A stretch of DNA of 35,616 nt, from the NCBI GenBank assembly GCA_012735435.1, contig JAAYHH010000137.1, forward strand, positions 1 through 35,616, read 5' to 3'. Under the pieces are notes generated by a model, which saw nothing but the letters and a program-made list of their open reading frames with translations, was not told where the DNA came from and did no database searches. The translations under genes and the position numbers were made by a program. This document shows positions 1-28,286 of the stretch, piece by piece. Each line of letters begins with the position of its first letter. The stretch's first letter is position 1. The DNA is from Bacillota bacterium. Its GTDB lineage: Bacteria; Bacillota; Limnochordia; DTU087.

Positions 1-123
1 GACTGGAATCTCAATCCGAACCTTAAGCTCAGCCCTCGCCAGCTCTCTGGCCTGTGCAGCACCTGCCAGACCAACCACCAACAACGCTGCCAGCACGATT
101 ATAAAAGCTGGAATTCTCTTCAT
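1..123 (-). CDS. N-terminal part of an exported protein, truncated by the window edge; paralogue-like to the 7909-8460 product
   Basis: Translation MKRIPAFIIVLAALLVVGLAGAAQARELARAELKVRIEIPV... has a signal peptide and AQA-like cleavage site. SD AGGAGG lies just upstream. The mature start RAELKVRIEIP resembles RAEIRVIVTIP of the 7909-8460 protein. Confidence 0.75.
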   Translation of the reverse strand, partial: MKRIPAFIIVLAALLVVGLAGAAQARELARAELKVRIEIPV

Positions 124-137
124 TTGTATTTCCTCCT

Positions 138-213
138 TTGGCAGCCCGGCCGCCATTAGTTTCCTAGTAGGCCCGTGGCTTTGTGCCCCCGCCTTTCGGT
201 CGGGTTTACCCTT
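138..213 (-). promoter_or_regulatory. GEMM-I / c-di-GMP-I riboswitch aptamer (gene-proximal copy)
   Basis: Reverse complement GGGTAAACCCGACCGAAAGGCGGGGGCACAAAGCCACGGGCCTACTAGGAAACTAATGGCGGCCGGGCTGCC shows the GEMM-I signature (G-x-AAACC, GAAA tetraloop, CAAAGCC, GGGCCTA, ATGGCxGCCGGG-TGCC). The SD of the truncated CDS directly abuts its 3' end. Confidence 0.88.
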
Positions 214-271
214 TCTGGAGAATTCTATGGAAATTCGTCGTCTGCTGTACCAGCTCCTTGAGCTCATATTC

Positions 272-311
272 AAAAAGGAGCCTTTCACCCAAAGAGATAA
301 CAGGCTCCTTT
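272..311 (-). terminator. Intrinsic terminator between the tandem riboswitch aptamers (likely expression platform of the distal copy)
   Basis: Minus strand AAAGGAGCC-tgttatctctttgggtgaaa-GGCTCCTTTTTG: 9-bp stem followed by a T-tract. Confidence 0.7.
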
Positions 312-330
312 AATCGTCCTATCCTCTCTT

Positions 331-411
331 CGGCAGTCCGGCCGCCTTAGCATATAGCTTTAGGCCCGTTGACTTTGCGCCCCCACCTTTCGGAGGGTTT
401 GCCTTTATCGG
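331..411 (-). promoter_or_regulatory. GEMM-I / c-di-GMP-I riboswitch aptamer (distal copy)
   Basis: Reverse complement GGCAAACCCTCCGAAAGGTGGGGGCGCAAAGTCAACGGGCCTAAAGCTATATGCTAAGGCGGCCGGACTGCC. Same conserved blocks as the proximal copy. Confidence 0.88.
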
Positions 412-585
412 TAGAGGTTGATGCTGCTTTATTTCTTCAGTGGATTTATACCCACACTTTGCCTTAATTAAACATTTTCTAATAACTTTTTATCCTATTG
501 ACTTCTTCCATTTACTTCTTCTACGGGGATTGAAAAACTCCTGCTCGCCAAAGGGATATTTACATAAAGTTTCCATCTTTTCTCT

Positions 586-2115
586 CTAATCGGGAATTTC
601 CAGCACCATATCACTGCTGAGAAGTTCCCTTGTTCCGTCGGAGATGGTCACCCTTACCTGGTAGGAACTGGGCTCAAGGCCCTGTGCCAGACCCTCAAGC
701 TGCTGCCTCTGCAGAGGCATAACCTTCTCAGTGCCCTCTCCCAGGGTTAACACAGCTCTCTCTACAAATTCCCCAGCATCGGTGGTAATTAACAGATCAG
801 CCCTAGGTATCAGATCTACATTGCCGGTGTTGGCGATATCCAGATACAGCATATGGCCTTCTTCTACCTTTTCAGCCTCAAGACTCTTGATCTCGACAGC
901 ATACAGGTGATCGGTTCCCACCAAGACCGAGATGGGGATTTCCCTTTCACTGAGAAGCTCGCCGCTGTCCGGATTGAAGGCTCCCAATAGGATATAACCG
1001 TTGTAAGAAGCATCGGCCGCCTCCTTAGGCACAGCGACGGTCAATACAATCCTGCCCCTTCCCCTTCCGGGAAGATTTATCTCACCAGATCCCCGAAGCT
1101 CAATCCACCCCAGGGGCGAGTAGGGATACTCAGCTTCCACATCTCTTCCGCCAACCAAGATTACCGCCGGATCCATTATCTCACTGGTCAGCTGCAGCAC
1201 TTGACTCCTTTGCTGCCCTGCCCTGATTTCCATAGAAATGGCGTCAGGTTCTACTGTAAAAGCCCCGATCTCCTCGGCACTGGGGAAGTTAAACTGCCCT
1301 TCGGCAACAGTGATTTCCTTCGTCTTTATAATCTGGCCGTGTTCCCCGTAGCGGAGGAATAATCTTAAGGTATAAACTCCAGGACTTAACCTTCTGGTCA
1401 CCGTGCCTGTGTACTCCACTTCACTGCCGGGATATATCCGCGTCTCCGTCAAATTGGCCCTGGCGCCGGCCTCACTGTTTAGCTGAATTCTTTCCACCAG
1501 CCGTCTGCCGTCATCCCGGATGGTAACTTCCCCTGAAACGAGGTAATCCCAGGCCGACGGATTGGCAACCCGGGCCATAATCACAGGCTCGCCTTCAGGC
1601 CCTGGGACCAAGTCAAATTCCGTAAGCTCCGCGAACGTCCGGAGACCCGGCCGGTCTACCCGGATATTCAGGCGAATTGCATACCTGACAATCAGGGTTA
1701 TCCCCGGCTGATCGGTTTCCACCTTGGGCTCAGCCATGAGTACCACCGTATGGGAGCCCCCGGCGTCAAAGGGAACCCTGACGGTGCCCCTCACATATGT
1801 ATCTTCACCCGGGTAGACTTTGACCTCATAGGAGTCGAGTTGTACCCAATTTACAGCGGGAAAGGTTTCAGGAACCGGCTCTTGATAAGCCAAGTTCCCG
1901 GTCAGCATCTGAACAGGCTGATACAATGAGAGCTGTACCGTCTCTTCGGTGTTGCCCGGGTTTAGGATAATCTCAAAATCCCTGGTATCACCGGGCCTGC
2001 AGTCGATATCAATGACTAAGGGACGTACCCCAAAGGCCAAAGTCACTTGGCTAGCCGCTGCAATGATTACAGCTGCGATTAGGCCAAGTAGAATCCCCCG
2101 TACGGCAGTTTTCAC
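586..2115 (-). CDS. Exported multi-domain beta-sandwich protein with DUF916/COG1470-like repeats
   Basis: Long ORF. GTG start after GAGAGGGTGG; signal peptide ILLGLIAAVIIAAASQVTLA. Two modules of the form [F-x-V-x-P...PG/AG...strand...NPGNTEETVQL]. Confidence 0.7.
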   Translation of the reverse strand: MKTAVRGILLGLIAAVIIAAASQVTLAFGVRPLVIDIDCRPGDTRDFEIILNPGNTEETVQLSLYQPVQMLTGNLAYQEPVPETFPAVNWVQLDSYEVKVYPGEDTYVRGTVRVPFDAGGSHTVVLMAEPKVETDQPGITLIVRYAIRLNIRVDRPGLRTFAELTEFDLVPGPEGEPVIMARVANPSAWDYLVSGEVTIRDDGRRLVERIQLNSEAGARANLTETRIYPGSEVEYTGTVTRRLSPGVYTLRLFLRYGEHGQIIKTKEITVAEGQFNFPSAEEIGAFTVEPDAISMEIRAGQQRSQVLQLTSEIMDPAVILVGGRDVEAEYPYSPLGWIELRGSGEINLPGRGRGRIVLTVAVPKEAADASYNGYILLGAFNPDSGELLSEREIPISVLVGTDHLYAVEIKSLEAEKVEEGHMLYLDIANTGNVDLIPRADLLITTDAGEFVERAVLTLGEGTEKVMPLQRQQLEGLAQGLEPSSYQVRVTISDGTRELLSSDMVLEIPD

Positions 2116-2169
2116 ATAACCACCCTCTCTACTCCAGTCCCCGGAAATTGAACTCCCCAAGTGATTACA

Positions 2170-2670
2170 CTATTTGGTTGCAGCAACAGTAATAGTTGCA
2201 GTACCTTCGTATGAGCCAGCCACTAGCTGGTACCACTTGTTCTGATCATCGGTCCACTTGGCCCAGAATACTATATTCACGGTCTTTTCTTCGCCAGCCC
2301 CAACGTCAAAGTTCGACTTGGGCAGCCTGCTAGTGCTTTCATCTGCGGGGTCTCTAAAACCAACTCCATAATCAACGAGTTCACCTTTTTCTTCCTGCTC
2401 TATCGACAGTGAAACACTAGTTACGCTAACCTTTACGTTTGTATTAGCGGAAACAGTAATCCAATCCTTTACTTCCTGATGATCCCCGGGTTTCGTGAGG
2501 TCAAGCGTCATACTTTTGGGGATTTTAACTATCTCAGCCCACTCATGCACATTTAGCTCTAGTTCTACATCCTGTTTTGCATAGAGAGGCTTATCCTCTG
2601 CCATCACAACCCCACATACTAAACCTAGAATCAAAACCAACATAGCTAGAATTCCCCAGCTTTTCCTCAT
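2170..2670 (-). CDS. Small exported beta-rich protein of the same putative subunit family
   Basis: ATG with GAGGAGG SD; signal peptide MRKSWGILAMLVLILGLVCGVVMA. C-terminus VAGSYEGTATITVAATK matches the shared G-x-Y-x-G motif. Confidence 0.75.
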   Translation of the reverse strand: MRKSWGILAMLVLILGLVCGVVMAEDKPLYAKQDVELELNVHEWAEIVKIPKSMTLDLTKPGDHQEVKDWITVSANTNVKVSVTSVSLSIEQEEKGELVDYGVGFRDPADESTSRLPKSNFDVGAGEEKTVNIVFWAKWTDDQNKWYQLVAGSYEGTATITVAATK

Positions 2671-2829
2671 AACACTTCCTCCTCATTGGTCCACTGGTTA
2701 TTATCCCATTGGCCGGTTTCACCACTGGCTCAACCGCCACCCCAAGGTGACCACATATGGGCAGCGGGTCATTGCCTCCAATGAGGAAAGCAGCATCCTT
2801 TGGATGCTCACACAATATAGCCTAACTGT

Positions 2830-3810
2830 TTAATTTGCCAAAGTAAAGCGAATATTGCCTCTGTAAATGCCGGCTATGTGTCTAAGTTCAGTCTTGACCC
2901 TAACTTCAAAAAGATACTCTGTCGTCCCATTTGGACAGCTAAAGACTATCCCCTTCCCATTAGCCAGGCTAAACCCGGTGCTTCCGCTATTGTCGCTACT
3001 AGCCCTGCTGATGTCTCTAACCTCCCTCAGCCAAATGGCATCAGGTTCAATCACAGGCACCGACCCTTGCTCCCACGCAGTAATTTTTTCACTGCTTTCA
3101 AACTTCAGGCCGTCACAGGAGACCGTCAAAGTGGAGCCTCTAGTGTTGGTAGTAGCTTTGACAGTGATCAGCTGCTCTGCCGTGTAAGTCCCCGGACCTT
3201 GATCGGCATTTACCACCACAACACTACCCTGCCCTGAACCTGTATCAACTACAAGGGAGATGCATTCCTTAACATCGACATTGAACCCGATAACACCATG
3301 TTTGGCTAGGGGGGAGGTTGATGTTAGATAACCCCTAAACTGGCCGGCATGCTTCCAGGCTTCCCTGCGAATACGGAACTTGATCTCCGCCGGTTTCTCC
3401 TCATCAGCTTTTAGGAACGGGACCGGCTTGTTCAGTGGTTGATAACCCCCCGAATAGGGAGTCCATGCCTCGATATAATCAGCGGGAATCTCCAGCTCTC
3501 CGCATTTCAAATCACTGACTTCGTAATAAATGTATTTCGTATCTCCAGCACGGGAGGCTTTGGCTTCATCGAGATTTGTACCTTGCGCCTCCTCCTCGAG
3601 GTTCACCCGCTCCCATGCCAAAGTTAGACTTTCCTCGCTGTACACATATTCATCAGCGGGTTTAGCATCAATTTCTATATTAATCGTCTGCTTGCTTGCC
3701 TTCACCACGCCGCTGCCCTCTGCAATACCGCCCAATGCCGCAAGCAGCACCAGGGTAAAGACAAGCCAGATTCCTCTAGCCCTTAACACTAGTCGACCAT
3801 TGGCCTGCAT
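2830..3810 (-). CDS. Exported beta-rich protein of the same putative subunit family
   Basis: ATG at 3810 (MQANGRLVLR...) with AAAAGGAG SD; signal peptide. C-terminus IAGIYRGNIRFTLAN carries the shared motif. Confidence 0.75.
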   Translation of the reverse strand: MQANGRLVLRARGIWLVFTLVLLAALGGIAEGSGVVKASKQTINIEIDAKPADEYVYSEESLTLAWERVNLEEEAQGTNLDEAKASRAGDTKYIYYEVSDLKCGELEIPADYIEAWTPYSGGYQPLNKPVPFLKADEEKPAEIKFRIRREAWKHAGQFRGYLTSTSPLAKHGVIGFNVDVKECISLVVDTGSGQGSVVVVNADQGPGTYTAEQLITVKATTNTRGSTLTVSCDGLKFESSEKITAWEQGSVPVIEPDAIWLREVRDISRASSDNSGSTGFSLANGKGIVFSCPNGTTEYLFEVRVKTELRHIAGIYRGNIRFTLAN

Positions 3811-3988
3811 GGCGCCTTGTCTCCTTTTCAACTTGCCTGCCGGTTCCTATGAATTCATCCATTATTTTTATCATCTCTAGGTAGCTTTGAAATGGTCTCA
3901 TTTCACCGGTTTGGGTGTGGCCGATGCGTCCTTGCCATGTTCCATTGGCGCAGCGGATGATTCGTACTACAAAAGTAGAAGGTGTCAT
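3776..3988 (-). CDS. Small conserved protein of about 70 aa (FVVRI..CANGTWQG pattern)
   Basis: MTPSTFVVRIIRCANGTWQGRIGHTQTGEMRPFQSYLEMIKIMDEFI... resembles small F-V-V-R-x-N-x-T-W-Q-G proteins I associate with BTAD regulators in Bacillota. Collinear with the operon, overlapping the next CDS by 35 bp. Confidence 0.6.
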   Translation of the reverse strand: MTPSTFVVRIIRCANGTWQGRIGHTQTGEMRPFQSYLEMIKIMDEFIGTGRQVEKETRRHAGQWSTSVKG

Positions 3989-4094
3989 TTAGAACTGCCC
4001 CCCTATACCGTAACCTGTGTACATTGTAGCCCGGCAGTCTATAACGTTTCTCTAAAAGGGCTCAAACTGAGTCCCATGAATTTCTATAAGCTTC

Positions 4095-5297
4095 CTAGAA
4101 GGCCCTTTCCAAAGCCCCCAGGATTGGGCGTTCACTGCCGCCTTTCAGTACTTCATAGGTGACCCCCGCCCGCACTTTGCTGCTTTTCTCCAGCTCCCGC
4201 TTTATCCGGCGGCCGACCACCTTGGCTCCGGTTTCATCTGTACCCCAAAGGCAGATGCCCAATTTGTCATCATCCCACTGGCAGACTACGTCACCCCGCC
4301 GCAGGATAGCAGCGGCGGCATCAGCTGACTGTTCCATGGATTTGGAGCCGTAGATGGACACCATCATCAAGGTGACCGGTTCCTGGCTGCGGTCCCGGCG
4401 GCGGCCTTCCAGGTGGCATAGTGCCTCAAAGAAGTTCCGATCGCTAACATAGGCGCCTCCGGAACGGGAAGGCACAGACTTAGCAAGCTCATTGGCATCT
4501 ATCCGGCCCCCGCTGTGAATTCTCTCCAAGAGGGCCCGGGCTTCACGGCTGGGATCTAACCCGAATTCGTCATGCATCATCCTGGCATAGGCGGTGTATT
4601 GGGTCGCTGCTTCCGTGTAGCGCCCAGCATCGATTAGGTAGCCGATCAATGCATGGTACAGATCCTCCCGATAGGGATCCTTCCGCAGCCCCTGCCGGCA
4701 GATCCGGATGGCTTCCCCAATATCAGCGGCCTGGGTAGCCAAGAGCTCAGCTAGACGCAGGATTCCATCGATATACATTTCCCGGTAGTACTCCCTTAAT
4801 TCGATGGTCCAGTCCAGGTACGGCTCCTCGACTAAGAAGTCTCCCCGGTATAGATCTAAGCTGCTTCGAAAGGCATTGATGGCTGCCCAAGGGTCGATTT
4901 TTTCAAGGTTCTTGCCTTCATTGTAAAGCTGCTCAAACTCTTCGCTATCTACCCAGCACTCATCTATCTTTTCCAGGCAATAAAGTCCTCCAGAGCAGGT
5001 AAGGAGGTTTGACTTCGCGTAACGCTTCAGGTCGGGATCAATAATCCGCCGGACAAAGTAAACACAGGTATGCAGGTTTTGCTCTGTGGAAGCATCAGGG
5101 TCGGTGTCCGGCCACAGCAGCTCATTTAGAACGTCTTTGGGGACCTTCTCACCTCGCCGGGAAGCCAAATAGCGAAAAAGATTGAGTGCTTTCTTAGATT
5201 TCCACTGGGATACCGGAACCTCTTTTCCATTAACTTCCATGGAAAACGGTCCCAAAAACCAAACCTTCAACCTGCTTCGAGGTGAGTCTGAGGTCAT
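4095..5297 (-). CDS. BTAD (SARP-like) transcriptional activator with a C-terminal degenerate GGDEF-like domain
   Basis: N-terminal winged helix (VWFLGPFSMEVNGKEVPVSQWKSKKALNLFRYLA) and BTAD TPR region. C-terminal LRRGDVVCQWDDDKLGICLW aligns by eye with RxxD-x5-GGDEF. SD GGAGGGG. Confidence 0.85.
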   Translation of the reverse strand: MTSDSPRSRLKVWFLGPFSMEVNGKEVPVSQWKSKKALNLFRYLASRRGEKVPKDVLNELLWPDTDPDASTEQNLHTCVYFVRRIIDPDLKRYAKSNLLTCSGGLYCLEKIDECWVDSEEFEQLYNEGKNLEKIDPWAAINAFRSSLDLYRGDFLVEEPYLDWTIELREYYREMYIDGILRLAELLATQAADIGEAIRICRQGLRKDPYREDLYHALIGYLIDAGRYTEAATQYTAYARMMHDEFGLDPSREARALLERIHSGGRIDANELAKSVPSRSGGAYVSDRNFFEALCHLEGRRRDRSQEPVTLMMVSIYGSKSMEQSADAAAAILRRGDVVCQWDDDKLGICLWGTDETGAKVVGRRIKRELEKSSKVRAGVTYEVLKGGSERPILGALERAF

Positions 5298-5337
5298 AAA
5301 TCAGCCCCTCCTAAGCTAAGATACCGCATCCTCAGGC

Positions 5338-6663
5338 TTAATCCAGCCAGAAGACTAAGCCTAAAGTGTACACTGATTCTGTCGTCGGAAGCTGGCCACA
5401 CTGCAGGCTGATGCCGCAATCGTCGCTGGCTCTCCTCATAATCGCCACTTCATGTCCTATCTCTCCGCTGTCATAGATCAAGTCATATCGGAATCGCCAT
5501 TTGTTCAAATCCAAAGCGGCACTGCACTGCAGCCACGCCGATTCAACAAAGCGCCTTTCTTTGGGAGCATAGACAATGGGGAGGTATACAGCTTCCACTT
5601 CTAAATCGCCCCACCGCACTTGGTCGGCTAAGCCGCACCGAATCAGTGGATCTGCGTCAGCCCTTTGAACTATATGGGCTGCAAGTCCCAATTCACCCAG
5701 CACGGAATAGGCTCCGCCTATCCTATAAGCCACGCCCTCGGGAAAGCCATCAACCTGGGCGCTTAGACTGTATTTCTCCCCCTTGAGCAGTATTCCGCCC
5801 CTCGGCCCGATCTCGCAGCCCATTAGGCCAATGCCCAGCCAAAGCTGGCCTTGGGTTCTTGCTTGTCCTCCAGGCCGAGCCATTAACTCCTGAAGGCCTT
5901 TGATGCTGCCAATGGAAACTACAGGTCCCTGATCCGCCAAAGCCCTGGGACTCATAACTTCCGCAGCGGCATAAAGGGCAAAGTACCTTTTTGTCAGTTC
6001 TTTTGTGTACCTTAGGTCTTGCACGATCACGGCCAGGGGCCGGTGCTTCTCTGAAGAAAGCCAGTCTGTAATGCGGACATTGCCTATGGCATTTGCGGGG
6101 CTTCCGTATTCCAGATCGATTTCTGTCAGAACTCCGCTGTCGGGATCGCCGTAGTACTTGGGTGTTAAGGCAATTCTGAGCCCGTACTCACTTTCTGCTT
6201 CCTCTTCCTGGGAAGCGGCAATCTTATCTTCCGCAACTTCGACAGAAACAGGCTGATCACCCATGGTGACCAACCAAGTATTATATTCAAAGGCCGCTGC
6301 TGAAGCTTCATCCGCCCCTTGTAAGCCTACGGTGAAAGCAGCGGGAAAATCTCCTACCAGACTCATGAGGGCATCATCGGTGATAATCCTATAGCCGCCT
6401 TGAACGTCTTCTCCCTTGGAGAATTCTGCACTGCTTTCCAGAATTCTTCCCATGGTGTAGCGCAGTTCAACGAGGCTCAGCTCATAGACAATCACCGGCT
6501 CATCCTTAGGAGACGGAAGCACATCCCAGCCCGGAGCCGTAAGCTGCTTTGGGGCATCATCAACATCTGCCTCTGCCGCCAAAACACCTAGGGTGCCGCC
6601 GGCCAGAGCAGCACCGCAGAGTAATAAAACAAGGAGCAATCCTATCGTTTTTCCCTTGGTCAC
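5338..6663 (-). CDS. Exported protein with a secretin-like middle segment and a putative C-terminal beta-barrel
   Basis: GTG start with GGGGAGG SD; signal peptide. QPVSVEVAEDKIAA...EYGLRIALTPKYYGDPDSGVLTEIDLEY resembles a secretin core. Alternating beta-strands run to a terminal VYTLGLVFWLD. Confidence 0.6.
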   Translation of the reverse strand: MTKGKTIGLLLVLLLCGAALAGGTLGVLAAEADVDDAPKQLTAPGWDVLPSPKDEPVIVYELSLVELRYTMGRILESSAEFSKGEDVQGGYRIITDDALMSLVGDFPAAFTVGLQGADEASAAAFEYNTWLVTMGDQPVSVEVAEDKIAASQEEEAESEYGLRIALTPKYYGDPDSGVLTEIDLEYGSPANAIGNVRITDWLSSEKHRPLAVIVQDLRYTKELTKRYFALYAAAEVMSPRALADQGPVVSIGSIKGLQELMARPGGQARTQGQLWLGIGLMGCEIGPRGGILLKGEKYSLSAQVDGFPEGVAYRIGGAYSVLGELGLAAHIVQRADADPLIRCGLADQVRWGDLEVEAVYLPIVYAPKERRFVESAWLQCSAALDLNKWRFRYDLIYDSGEIGHEVAIMRRASDDCGISLQCGQLPTTESVYTLGLVFWLD

Positions 6664-6677
6664 CTACGCTACCTCCC

Positions 6678-7868
6678 CTATTGGATGCCAGGGGTGACGA
6701 ATACCAGGACTTCCCGATCACCCTCCCCCTTGATGTCATTTCTAAACAGCCAGCGGATGATTGGTATATCCCCAAGGATGGGCACTTTCCGGGATAAGTT
6801 GTAAAAATCCTGCATGGTCATGCCTGCCAATACCGCTGTTTGGCCGTTGGCCAGCCGCACCGTAGTTGATACGGAATTCCGTTTGACCACCAAATCAGGC
6901 CTTGCTTCGCTGACAAAATGGCTGACTTCGGGGGCAAGATTAAGTAGTATGTGATCATCGGGTAGAATAGTCGGAGTAACCTTTAGGATGACTCCTACCT
7001 CAACTCTTTCAATCCGGGAGGTCTCTTCATCATCTGCTCTTATGGGCAGAATCTGCAAGTCCCCGATAAAGAGCTCCGCTGTTTCCCGATCTGCGACCAG
7101 TACCCGGGGGTCGGCGTGGATTTCGGCTTCCTGGTTCTGTTCTAGCATCCTGAGCCTAGTTAACAACTCACCCCAAATGTCGGTACCTAGCTCAAGAACA
7201 CTACCATCAAAACCAATGCTCCCTTTCCAATCGTCACTTACACTCTGCCCTTTCACAGCGGTAAATTCTAACCAACTGTTCCCCAGCTCCTTCAGCGCTG
7301 AAGAAGAAACCTCCGTCACCAGCACCTTGATCTCCACAGTCCTGCGGGGTGTGTCAATCTGCCTGATCAAGTTCTTAATCCTCTCCAATTCCAAAGGCGG
7401 TGCCGAGATGGTGAGGATATTGCCTCCGGGTGTACCCCTTACATATGTAGATAAGAACGTTGGAAGCTGGTCAATGACTTCCTGGGCAGTTATGTTATTA
7501 AGGCGAACAATTTCAGTCTCCACCAAGGCACTAAAGGTGGTGTTCCGGGGATCAGGAAGGCCTACTATGTAATAGTCATCAACTTTTCTGAAGGAAAGAC
7601 CACCGGTGAAGAGAATCATCCTCAAGGCCTTTTCCAAAGGTACATCCTGAAGATCCGCTGTCACCTGACCGCTCACTGTCTGATCGGCGATAATAGTCAC
7701 GCCGGTCTGTAAAGAGATCTCGCTGAGGGATTCCCTGAGGTCTGTTTCAAACAACATGATATTAACCAAAGGTTCATCTTCTTCCTGGGCAAAGCCAACT
7801 CCGCCAACCAAGAAGATTAAGACTAAAGCCCATAAACACAGTGCCAACTGCCGTCTACATTTCCCCAT
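6678..7868 (-). CDS. Secretin-family protein (PilQ/GspD-like) with N-terminal STN-like domain
   Basis: Signal peptide. VNIMLFETDLRESLSEISLQTGVTIIADQTVSGQVTADLQDVPLEKALRMIL is STN-like. VGVILKVTPTILPDDHILLNLAPEVS...RNSVSTTVRLANGQTAVLAGM...KVPILGDIPIIRWLFR is a typical secretin C-terminus. Confidence 0.93.
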   Translation of the reverse strand: MGKCRRQLALCLWALVLIFLVGGVGFAQEEDEPLVNIMLFETDLRESLSEISLQTGVTIIADQTVSGQVTADLQDVPLEKALRMILFTGGLSFRKVDDYYIVGLPDPRNTTFSALVETEIVRLNNITAQEVIDQLPTFLSTYVRGTPGGNILTISAPPLELERIKNLIRQIDTPRRTVEIKVLVTEVSSSALKELGNSWLEFTAVKGQSVSDDWKGSIGFDGSVLELGTDIWGELLTRLRMLEQNQEAEIHADPRVLVADRETAELFIGDLQILPIRADDEETSRIERVEVGVILKVTPTILPDDHILLNLAPEVSHFVSEARPDLVVKRNSVSTTVRLANGQTAVLAGMTMQDFYNLSRKVPILGDIPIIRWLFRNDIKGEGDREVLVFVTPGIQ

Positions 7869-7908
7869 TTTTCTACCCCCCAACAATTTACACACAGTCG
7901 AGGCTCTT

Positions 7909-8460
7909 TTAGCCCACCAACGGTACCACAGTGTAAACGATGCTTCCCCTATAAGTTCCAGGGGTGTCAAGCCATGTTGCCAAAAGCTGAACATCCATCC
8001 TTAAGACGTTCCTTCCCGCCGCATTACTGGAAAACACAGGCCCTTGTCTAGCGTTCCTAGTTCCAAGGGTATGCCAGGGACTCTCGGCGCTAGAACCAGC
8101 AGAACTGATCAATCTAAACTGCATTTGGGAACTGCTCAGGCTTGTGTTGTTTGGTCCTGCAAAGGCATCGGCGGATGCTGAAATATATAAGGCATGGGGT
8201 ACATTACCGGCAACTTCAATCTGCACAGCATCCAGCTTTGATGCTAAGATACCTTCCTCCGTCATCACAGCATCTTTAGTTGTATCAAAATCTTCCTCAC
8301 TAAAGACCAACTCAGTAGCATTGACACGTACCCAGAGTATTTGGGGGATGGTAACAATCACTCGGATCTCAGCCCTATCCAGTACTTGGGCATCAGCCGG
8401 ACAAATCCCGAATACGAACAGCAACAACAGACAAAGGATCATCCACTTCCAGCGGTTCAT
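7909..8460 (-). CDS. Exported pilin-like beta-sandwich protein (DUF4402/SCPU-like pattern)
   Basis: MNRWKWMILCLLLLFVFGICPADAQVLDRAEIRVIVTIPQILWVRV... has a signal peptide. C-terminus PGTYRGSIVYTVVPLVG. SD GGGGTG. Confidence 0.7.
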   Translation of the reverse strand: MNRWKWMILCLLLLFVFGICPADAQVLDRAEIRVIVTIPQILWVRVNATELVFSEEDFDTTKDAVMTEEGILASKLDAVQIEVAGNVPHALYISASADAFAGPNNTSLSSSQMQFRLISSAGSSAESPWHTLGTRNARQGPVFSSNAAGRNVLRMDVQLLATWLDTPGTYRGSIVYTVVPLVG

Positions 8461-26603: not shown

Positions 26604-27173
26604 TTATGATGCCAATTCCAGGACCTTAGGCAGTTTGGCCGCAACGTAGGGATTAAACCGCTGACCAGAAAGCCGGAGAATCTCCTGAACAGCCTCCCCC
26701 GGAGTGCGGGCCCGTCCATGGGGGCCCGGCCGAATCATGACATCATAGGCATTGGCTACCGCCAGGATTGCTGCAGTGATGGGGATTTCTTCTCCCTGCA
26801 GACCATCGGGATATCCTTGGCCGTTCCACCATTCGTGATGGTGGCGGATGGCTTCTACTATGCCCTCATTGATGCCCAAATTTGACAAGATGGCTGCACC
26901 TACGTCTGCATGCCGCATTAGTGTATGGTGCTCTTTTCCATCTAAAGGTCCCAGCTTCTTCAGTATGTCTTTCGGCACAGCGATATTGCCCACATCATGG
27001 AGAGCAGCTGCCTGGACAACGGTGTTCTGCATCTCTTCAGAAAGGCCCACAGCCATTCCCAGGGCCTCTGCCAAAGGTACCAAGCGGGTTATATATTCTA
27101 TACTCTCATCGGTGACCTGTACTGCAAGCTCCAGCAGCCTCACCATACGGGAGGTTAAGATGCCGTGCAGCAC
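26604..27173 (-). CDS. HD-GYP domain phosphohydrolase (putative c-di-GMP phosphodiesterase)
   Basis: ALHDVGNIAVPKDIL; HADVGAAIL; AIRHHHEWWNGQGYPDGLQGEEIP gives HD plus GYP motifs. GTG start 3 bp after the upstream stop. Confidence 0.92.
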   Translation of the reverse strand: MLHGILTSRMVRLLELAVQVTDESIEYITRLVPLAEALGMAVGLSEEMQNTVVQAAALHDVGNIAVPKDILKKLGPLDGKEHHTLMRHADVGAAILSNLGINEGIVEAIRHHHEWWNGQGYPDGLQGEEIPITAAILAVANAYDVMIRPGPHGRARTPGEAVQEILRLSGQRFNPYVAAKLPKVLELAS

Positions 27174-27176
27174 ATC

Positions 27177-28286
27177 TCATGGATCTCCGTAGCGAAAAGC
27201 ATCGGCAGTGGCAACTCTGTTTCTCCCCCGGAGTTTAGCTCCGGCCATCAGCGCCCTGTCCGCCTTGTTCAAAAGCTCTGTTACAGTGATGCCGTGTTCA
27301 GGGTAAGTTGCTACCCCAATGGAGATGCTGATGGGACACTCCGGCAGTTCCCGGCTGAAAACATCGGCCACCCGTTTTCTCAGGCGTTGAGCTGCCGCTA
27401 TGGCCGCTTGGTGATTAGTGTTTTTCATCAGAATGGCAAATTCATCGCCGCCGTAGCGGCAGACAATATCATCTGCACGGATCTCCCGCTGGATAAACTT
27501 AGCGAACTGCTCCAATACCGCATCTCCCAAGGCATGGCCGCCCTGGTCGTTGACCAGCTTGAAATTGTCCAGATCCAAAAGCAGAAGGCTTAAGCTTTCG
27601 CCCCGTTTCTGGGCTTCCATCAATACTGTCTTGCTCACCCACCCCAGCATCCGCCTGCTGCCGACGCCGGTCAAATCATCGCAAAATCCCAGCCGGTAAA
27701 GATTTTCCAAAAAACTTAGACTCTGCAGCAAAAGCACGCTGATTAATACAAAGATGAGCATTCCTATTGCGGCAGTACTAGAAGAAACAACGCCGTAAAG
27801 CTCCCTTTCCTCAACGGCCATGAGAATAACTGCTGCCCATAAAGCCAGAGACATAAAGCCGGTGCGGGACGGCATATCCAAAGCAGAAAGGGTCATGCCC
27901 ACCAGCATCAAGCCATACCCAAGGGTAACCGTCCCCGGGGAACTGACCACAATCCCGGAGAGAGCTATCCATGCGGAGTAGTACCCAACCCAGCTTGCGG
28001 CCCAAGAAGCCCGCAAAGTGGCTATAAGCCAAACTGCACAGCTGACAGCGGCCTGAATCCACAAAAAGGTCGGGATCCACGTTCTCGGCTGAACACTCCG
28101 GCTGTGCATAGCAACCAATATCATGATGATGATGACAAATGCCCAGATAAGTCGCGGAAAGTTGGAGCCTTCTCCCAGAAAATGCGCGATGGACCGCCAG
28201 CGAATATGCCGCAGTACCTGTTCATTTTCCAGCTTGCCAAGGGTCAAACTTCGTACCCCCCCGTATGTATCAGCAGTGTCGGCCAA
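27177..28286 (-). CDS. Membrane-anchored GGDEF diguanylate cyclase
   Basis: Several TM segments, then DLTGVGSRRML...LLLLDLDNFKLVNDQGGHALGDAVL...REIRADDIVCRYGGDEFAIL with an intact GGDEF and an RxxD I-site. Start codon uncertain. Confidence 0.95.
   Translation of the reverse strand: MADTADTYGGVRSLTLGKLENEQVLRHIRWRSIAHFLGEGSNFPRLIWAFVIIIMILVAMHSRSVQPRTWIPTFLWIQAAVSCAVWLIATLRASWAASWVGYYSAWIALSGIVVSSPGTVTLGYGLMLVGMTLSALDMPSRTGFMSLALWAAVILMAVEERELYGVVSSSTAAIGMLIFVLISVLLLQSLSFLENLYRLGFCDDLTGVGSRRMLGWVSKTVLMEAQKRGESLSLLLLDLDNFKLVNDQGGHALGDAVLEQFAKFIQREIRADDIVCRYGGDEFAILMKNTNHQAAIAAAQRLRKRVADVFSRELPECPISISIGVATYPEHGITVTELLNKADRALMAGAKLRGRNRVATADAFRYGDP

Follow-up and report, generated by a model that had tools for sequence, protein, structure and literature searches.

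We analysed contig JAAYHH010000137.1 (C74; 35,616 bases, the complete contig, hereafter the window) from a 1.75-Mb, 83% complete metagenome-assembled genome (MAG) of a Limnochordia bacterium (GCA_012735435.1). Its first 8,460 positions hold a gene cluster with a short secretin: eight collinear genes on the minus strand and a ninth, partial gene for a further exported paralogue. A first-pass annotation had described this arrangement, with the ninth gene behind tandem GEMM-I riboswitches, and all of it was confirmed. Its statement that prepilin peptidase, PilB/GspE ATPase and inner-membrane platform genes are absent from the locus was also borne out: the window's gene cluster encodes none of the three. 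The features are listed below in the 5′ to 3′ direction of the minus strand.

7909–8460, minus strand: P213, Sec-exported β-sandwich subunit, 183 amino acids from its likely start; ribosome-binding site at 8460
6678–7868, minus strand: secretin, short (about 396 amino acids from M43), with a signal peptide, STN/N0 domain, one N1 domain and secretin core
5338–6663, minus strand: G441, with a predicted secretin-derived N-terminal region and 12-strand outer-membrane β-barrel
4095–5297, minus strand: regulator of BTAD/SARP type; its degenerate GGDEF domain retains the RxxD I-site (RRGD)
3776–3988, minus strand: open reading frame for a small conserved protein of 70 amino acids, with homologues at the equivalent position in loci L026 and L030
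2830–3810, minus strand: C333, larger exported subunit, placed with P213 and B166 by iterated profile search
2702–2788, minus strand: cyclic di-GMP (c-di-GMP)-II riboswitch preceding B166 (Rfam RF01786, 67.7 bits, E 2.8e-13)
2170–2670, minus strand: B166, exported β-sandwich subunit of the same profile family, probably the major one, behind the class II riboswitch
586–2115, minus strand: A524, exported tandem WxLIP-like (DUF916/DUF3324) protein, proposed subunit chaperone
328–412, minus strand: c-di-GMP-I-GGC riboswitch, first of a tandem (Rfam RF03167, 68.8 bits)
137–220, minus strand: c-di-GMP-I riboswitch, second of the tandem (Rfam RF01051, 68 bits)
1–123, minus strand: N, further exported subunit, cut by the contig end; ribosome-binding site at 123

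Gene starts were picked by ribosome-binding sites, and the likely starts lie inside the longest open reading frames. Because such a site precedes each of them, we place the starts of the secretin at 7868, of A524 at 2115 (GTG), of C333 at 3810 and of P213 at 8460. Full-length orthologues of N, 154–219 amino acids long, are found in six other loci (L026, L030, L036, L045, L046 and L052). The diderm lineage suggested by the first-pass annotation agrees with the Omp85/BamA-type protein encoded in this genome and with the diderm envelope given for Limnochordia in PMC11456536, which cites Taib et al. 2020; this inference is in itself already known.

A conserved module around a minimal secretin

We found that the cluster belongs to one conserved module, in which a minimal secretin and a barrel protein of the outer membrane are combined with a WxLIP-like protein and with Sec-type exported β-sandwich subunits. 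Within the class, 40 loci carry recurring subunits, A524, the secretin and either G441 or another barrel-like protein, often together with a BTAD regulator. Most sister loci have a P213 orthologue 5′ of the secretin gene, and a protein resembling an outer-membrane protein comes after nearly every secretin. To prevent circularity, the A524 profile was used alone on 200 genomes of the phylum. In the loci examined, the short secretin was the next gene in 17 of 18 full-length A524 homologues, and a subunit gene preceded the homologue in the same proportion (17/18). The sole homologue without an adjacent secretin (L078) has one within the same cluster, with the gene order of the window.

The order subunit(s)–WxLIP–secretin–outer-membrane protein is found in Limnochordia, other Bacillota classes, Thermotogota and Eisenbacteria (where the barrel was not identified). 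A profile scan of the contigs of named genomes extended the family by three MAGs, two of Thermotogota and one of Eisenbacteria. One Thermotogota locus (L118) encodes a large subunit, two subunits, A524, the secretin, G441 and a convergent BTAD regulator; the other (L119) encodes A524, the secretin and G441. In the Eisenbacteria locus (L120), A524 is accompanied by a pair of subunit-like genes, a secretin of greater length and another exported protein, and many loci outside the class combine a large (about 600 amino acids) with a small subunit. Neighbourhood conservation across Limnochordia-like and other diderm Bacillota had been proposed as a check, with failure of co-conservation counting against the first-pass reading; the neighbours are co-conserved, across phyla too. 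Literature that describes the system, or that pairs a secretin with WxLIP or a strand-exchange partner, was not found in a search that most subscription journals and bioRxiv lay beyond. We consider it very probable that this is a real, widely conserved and apparently undescribed system.

At the sequence level, the identity of the secretin is unambiguous. It matches Secretin (PF00263, 1.3e-37), Secretin_N (PF03958, 1.2e-8) and STN (PF07660, 1.6e-6) in Pfam, and GspD, PilQ and phage pIV among PDB profiles (7ofh, E 5.8e-36). Searching 61 genomes of the class and calling the family's short secretin at a best E ≤ 1e-46, we found it in 41 of them. In a tree of secretin cores, a 98/94 branch splits 36 family members, Thermotogota and Eisenbacteria included, from 21 further secretins of the class, among them those of Tad type, named PilQ and GspD references being absent from the tree. 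No T2SSE-family ATPase passed the Pfam cut-off in nine secretin-bearing genomes (G018, G019, G022, G026, G032, G038, G045, G048 and G058), two of which, G026 and G032, are single-contig genomes. No GspE/F/G-type gene lies near a family member, and ATPase, platform and prepilin peptidase genes are not among the recurrent neighbours. Separately, the closed genome G026, with no GspE/PilB ATPase over the cut-off, carries two near-identical extra secretins outside the family (L129 and L130).

Membership of a type II secretion system (T2SS), type IV pilus (T4P) or Tad system fails because ATPase, leader type and tree all disagree. This agrees with the first-pass view of the locus as neither a standard T2SS nor a standard T4P locus, for which the missing ATPase, the non-class III leaders described below and the secretin's own clade all speak. 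Secretin homologues beside pilMNO/pilBC or gspE/F had been named as the finding that would contradict that view; the homologues do not adjoin pilB or gspE. The window secretin shares with GspD, PilQ and RcpA the secretin superfamily with STN/N0, N1 and core, whereas it is very short, forms its own clade, has no accompanying ATPase, platform or prepilin genes and is found with subunits that are not class III prepilins. Its minimal size and domain layout are similar to those of the filamentous-phage pIV secretin; by contrast, the window locus is not phage, and no pI/pXI-like partner was seen there.

Four secretin genes are present in the window's genome: two long ones, of about 1000 amino acids, and two short ones. 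Both long secretins sit in Tad loci, with a TadA-type ATPase in both, an A24 prepilin peptidase in one (C20) and TadE or Tad/G-like genes. The second short secretin is a paralogue on contig C138, adjoining an A524 paralogue and a 238-residue barrel-like protein. We rejected the family secretin as part of a Tad locus, since Tad loci own separate secretins, the clade differs and ATPase-free genomes carry it.

Pfam and NCBIfam searches with single subunits, with A524 or with G441 were uninformative, and family profiles were needed. The A524 family profile matched EfmWxLIP1 (9i1y, 9i25) with E 1.8e-7 over PGBD, and HBD followed in order with a low score. A Thermotogota homologue exceeded the cut-off of Pfam WxLIP_PGBD (PF06030; 34.4 versus 27.3 bits), and the second halves of A524-type proteins match WxLIP_PGBD/fn3_5 again. 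For these last two reasons we regard A524 as a tandem WxLIP-like protein; the first-pass label, DUF916-like, is confirmed by the EfmWxLIP1 profile match and is refined to a duplicated WxLIP (DUF916/DUF3324) homologue. None of 28 A524 homologues has a transmembrane helix.

According to AlphaFold2 predictions, WxLIP inserts a strand into the gap of WxL, parallel to a WxL strand, and so finishes the sandwich; WxL clusters join one WxLIP with one small and one large surface protein (PMC10599100). The present module resembles the WxL/WxLIP clusters of monoderm Bacillota in having a WxLIP (DUF916 + DUF3324) homologue beside small and large exported β-sandwich partners. It differs from them in that the WxLIP is duplicated and has no transmembrane anchor, the partners are not WxL proteins, and an outer-membrane secretin and barrel are added. 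Because partner family and membrane anchor differ, membership of the WxL clusters fails. The parallel strand geometry predicted for WxLIP is also that of the chaperones of chaperone–usher systems.

P213, B166 and C333 form one superfamily in iterated profile searches. A Sec signal peptide was found in 68 of 71 subunits and a class III-like motif in one; none of the 71 matched a Pfam family, WxL included, and the subunits had no match in the PDB profile search. With class III leaders in only 1/71, we rejected the reading of the subunits as type IV pilins. The earlier term ‘pilin-like’ should thus not be taken in the type IV pilin sense; the fold modelled by AlphaFold2 resembles chaperone–usher and TasA-like subunits. 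In the model of P213 (pLDDT 91.4), residues 28–41 form a β-like alternating segment without a strand partner, which would fit, but does not prove, an open groove. At the head of the Foldseek list for P213 stand a few sandwich domains of glycosidases, together with TLP-1; for the TLP-1 structures (PDB 9ikj and 9ikk) we found no publication. Further down are FimF, FimG, Caf1, CsuA/B, CsuE, PapE, CfaB, FimA, the Sulfolobus 0406 thread and CanA, and about two thirds of the best 50 PDB matches are donor-strand fibre subunits or TasA-like/thread proteins. TasA and archaeal thread fibres resemble the present subunits at the level of the predicted fold, and strand-exchange fibres exist in Bacillota; those systems differ in having no outer-membrane channel, and no sequence similarity between them and the window subunits was found.

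For G441, AlphaFold2 predicts a 12-strand barrel in which blocks are mostly above 90 pLDDT, and this barrel matches KdgM (4fqe) at a TM-score of 0.67. When the window's G441 group was aligned directly with the secretin by hhalign, the match was weak and ambiguous (probability 22%, E 0.001). The long-form homologues of L082, L083 and L049 match the secretin profile at 1.3e-32, 2e-21 and 1.2e-23, respectively, and an STN domain is still present in those of L082 and L049. Because of these long-form matches, we interpret the N-terminal half of G441 as secretin-derived; judged by its homologues and model, G441 joins the decayed remnant of a secretin paralogue to an outer-membrane barrel of 12 strands. 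The first-pass description of a 441-residue exported β-rich protein was right about the β-structure and incomplete in seeing simply that.

c-di-GMP riboswitches and the BTAD regulator

Riboswitches were called at the Rfam gathering threshold, and all three window aptamers lie above it, at 67.7–68.8 bits. A class I riboswitch precedes the N-type subunit in the window and in L026, L030, L036, L046 and L052; a class II riboswitch precedes the B166-type subunit in the window, L026, L030 and L046, with a GAG variant in L049. No riboswitch was found near eight scanned loci from other classes and phyla, so riboswitch control is a trait of the window's relatives and not of the whole family.

The regulator matches BTAD (2.2e-18) and GGDEF (2.7e-5) in Pfam. 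Alignment of 14 regulators with a GGDEF-like domain showed that the GGDEF motif is lost in all 14 and that RxxD is kept in 13. The RxxD I-site is a known c-di-GMP site of GGDEF-type domains. The three riboswitches and the degenerate GGDEF domain support the c-di-GMP-linked control proposed in the first-pass annotation; the regulatory elements that it listed are real, and the list was incomplete, having overlooked both the c-di-GMP-II aptamer at 2788–2702 and the GGDEF-like part of the BTAD regulator. Elsewhere in the window (26604–28286) lie genes for a GGDEF protein of 369 amino acids with an intact RYGGDEF motif and an HD-GYP-like protein of 189 amino acids, a possible source and sink of the c-di-GMP sensed by the riboswitches.

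A proposed export and assembly pathway and its alternatives

Taking together the observed gene content, homology, gene order, signal peptides, riboswitches and absence of ATPase and usher, we lean, by a small degree, towards an outer-membrane system that exports and assembles surface fibres, an analogue of the chaperone–usher pathway made from unrelated parts. In this proposal, subunits would arrive in the periplasm unfinished, and A524 would donate a β-strand to each of them, a role predicted for WxLIP with WxL and known from the PapD-type chaperones of pilins. A524 would then deliver the strapped subunit to the secretin, through which subunits would traverse the outer membrane, joining head to tail by strand exchange. 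No ATPase would be needed because strand exchange would supply the energy. The barrel protein G441 may aid insertion of the secretin, gate it or anchor the fibre, and high c-di-GMP might raise the major subunits, the direction of switching being part of the proposal.

The FimD usher (PF00577) was found in none of the 61 genomes, with a positive E. coli control, and we rejected membership of the FimD-type chaperone–usher systems for that reason. Despite this, the cluster may work like one. The module shares with the chaperone–usher systems (FimC/FimD, CsuC/CsuD and Caf1M/Caf1A) Sec-exported subunits with a possible immunoglobulin-like fold, an adjacent exported multi-immunoglobulin protein, one outer-membrane pore, no ATPase and, often, a large and a small subunit, and the P213 model resembles their subunits at moderate scores. 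By contrast, its pore is a secretin rather than an usher, A524 is WxLIP-like and duplicated with no PapD sequence match, an extra outer-membrane barrel protein is present, and strand exchange is here a conjecture.

Several points weigh against a fibre-assembling pathway. The module is known here from genes and single-protein models, and we know of no secretin that acts as an assembler of strand-exchange fibres. The Foldseek scores of P213 are modest: its best E, 6.6e-5, is to glycosidase β-sandwich domains, and pilins follow at E of about 1e-3 to 1e-2 with TM-scores of 0.3–0.5, sandwich folds being common. In sequence searches the 71 subunits matched neither pilin nor WxL families, and a single motif suggests that the regulator binds c-di-GMP.

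One possible alternative is a diderm WxL complex, in which A524 and the outer-membrane proteins would anchor a coat or adhesin without any polymer, and the secretin would serve only as an exit pore or anchor. A524 is a WxLIP homologue, and WxL clusters hold one WxLIP together with two surface proteins, a small one and a large one (PMC10599100), much as many of the present loci have a subunit of about 600 amino acids beside a small one. However, the subunits have no WxL-family match, A524 lacks the WxLIP membrane anchor and the modelled subunit fold matches fibre-forming proteins, and we consider this alternative unlikely. Still less probable is a general T2SS-like export channel for other substrates, with the β-sandwich proteins as accessory plugs or cargo. 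Diverse cargo is usual for secretins, and GspD and PilQ are among the PDB profile matches of this one, but GspE/F/G-type genes lie near no family member, several genomes are wholly without the ATPase, and the constant neighbours of the secretin are the subunits and A524.

A stray PilQ-type channel for Tad pili or DNA uptake, lying near surface genes by coincidence, seems very improbable. Annotations usually call such secretins PilQ, and in Thermotoga RQ7 three secretins are listed under that name (PMC5637354). Nevertheless, the Tad and other secretins found in these genomes fall outside the family's clade, Tad loci have secretins of their own, the gene order is kept across phyla and the family secretin is present in closed genomes without PilB/TadA; coincidence is refuted by the co-conservation.

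As a more specific form of the fibre-assembling pathway, we tentatively suggest, as quite possible, a separate strand-exchange pathway of several diderm phyla in which the secretin replaces the usher, a WxLIP-like protein replaces PapD and the decayed secretin–barrel fusion is the partner subunit.

If correct, this pathway would be functionally convergent with chaperone–usher pili and would represent a new kind of outer-membrane export and fibre assembly in diderms outside Proteobacteria, using a secretin without any ATPase. It would also give the WxL surface complexes of monoderm Bacillota an outer-membrane relative; this tie between the WxL/WxLIP complexes of monoderms and bacteria with an outer membrane can be tested and bears on the diderm-to-monoderm transition. 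The survey of Abby et al. 2016 detected none of the known protein secretion systems in Thermotogae and proposed that envelope-adapted systems may exist there (PMC4793230); the cluster of the two Thermotogota MAGs offers a specific candidate for such a system. Some of the lineages that carry the cluster have cultured members, so it is open to testing.

Related loci and further copies in the genome

In seven loci outside the class (L086–L090, L093 and L094), the first gene of the module encodes a protein of 600–700 amino acids with a weak subunit match, a candidate tip adhesin. A secretin-less relative (L095, 9054–12473) encodes a subunit of 207 amino acids, a two-immunoglobulin A524-like protein of 265 amino acids (WxLIP_PGBD-like) and a barrel-like protein of 652 amino acids with SdrD_B and CarboxypepD_reg domains; this set may be a different route across the outer membrane for related subunits. 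In two loci of other Bacillota (L096, 8816–10841; L097, 9003–12046), subunit genes lie beside those for A524-like proteins of 461 and 269 amino acids, respectively, with no secretin; these pairs may show how a subunit and an A524-like protein work without an outer membrane.

In the window's own genome, the locus on contig C138 (L006, 1159–4500) is a simpler second copy of the module, consisting of the A524 paralogue, the short secretin and the 238-residue barrel-like protein. The final part of this secretin lies in another frame (match at 1894–2001), a frameshift or assembly error. The two Tad-type loci of the genome (L066 and L067, on contigs C20 and C67) each have their own BON-rich secretin of roughly 1000 amino acids.

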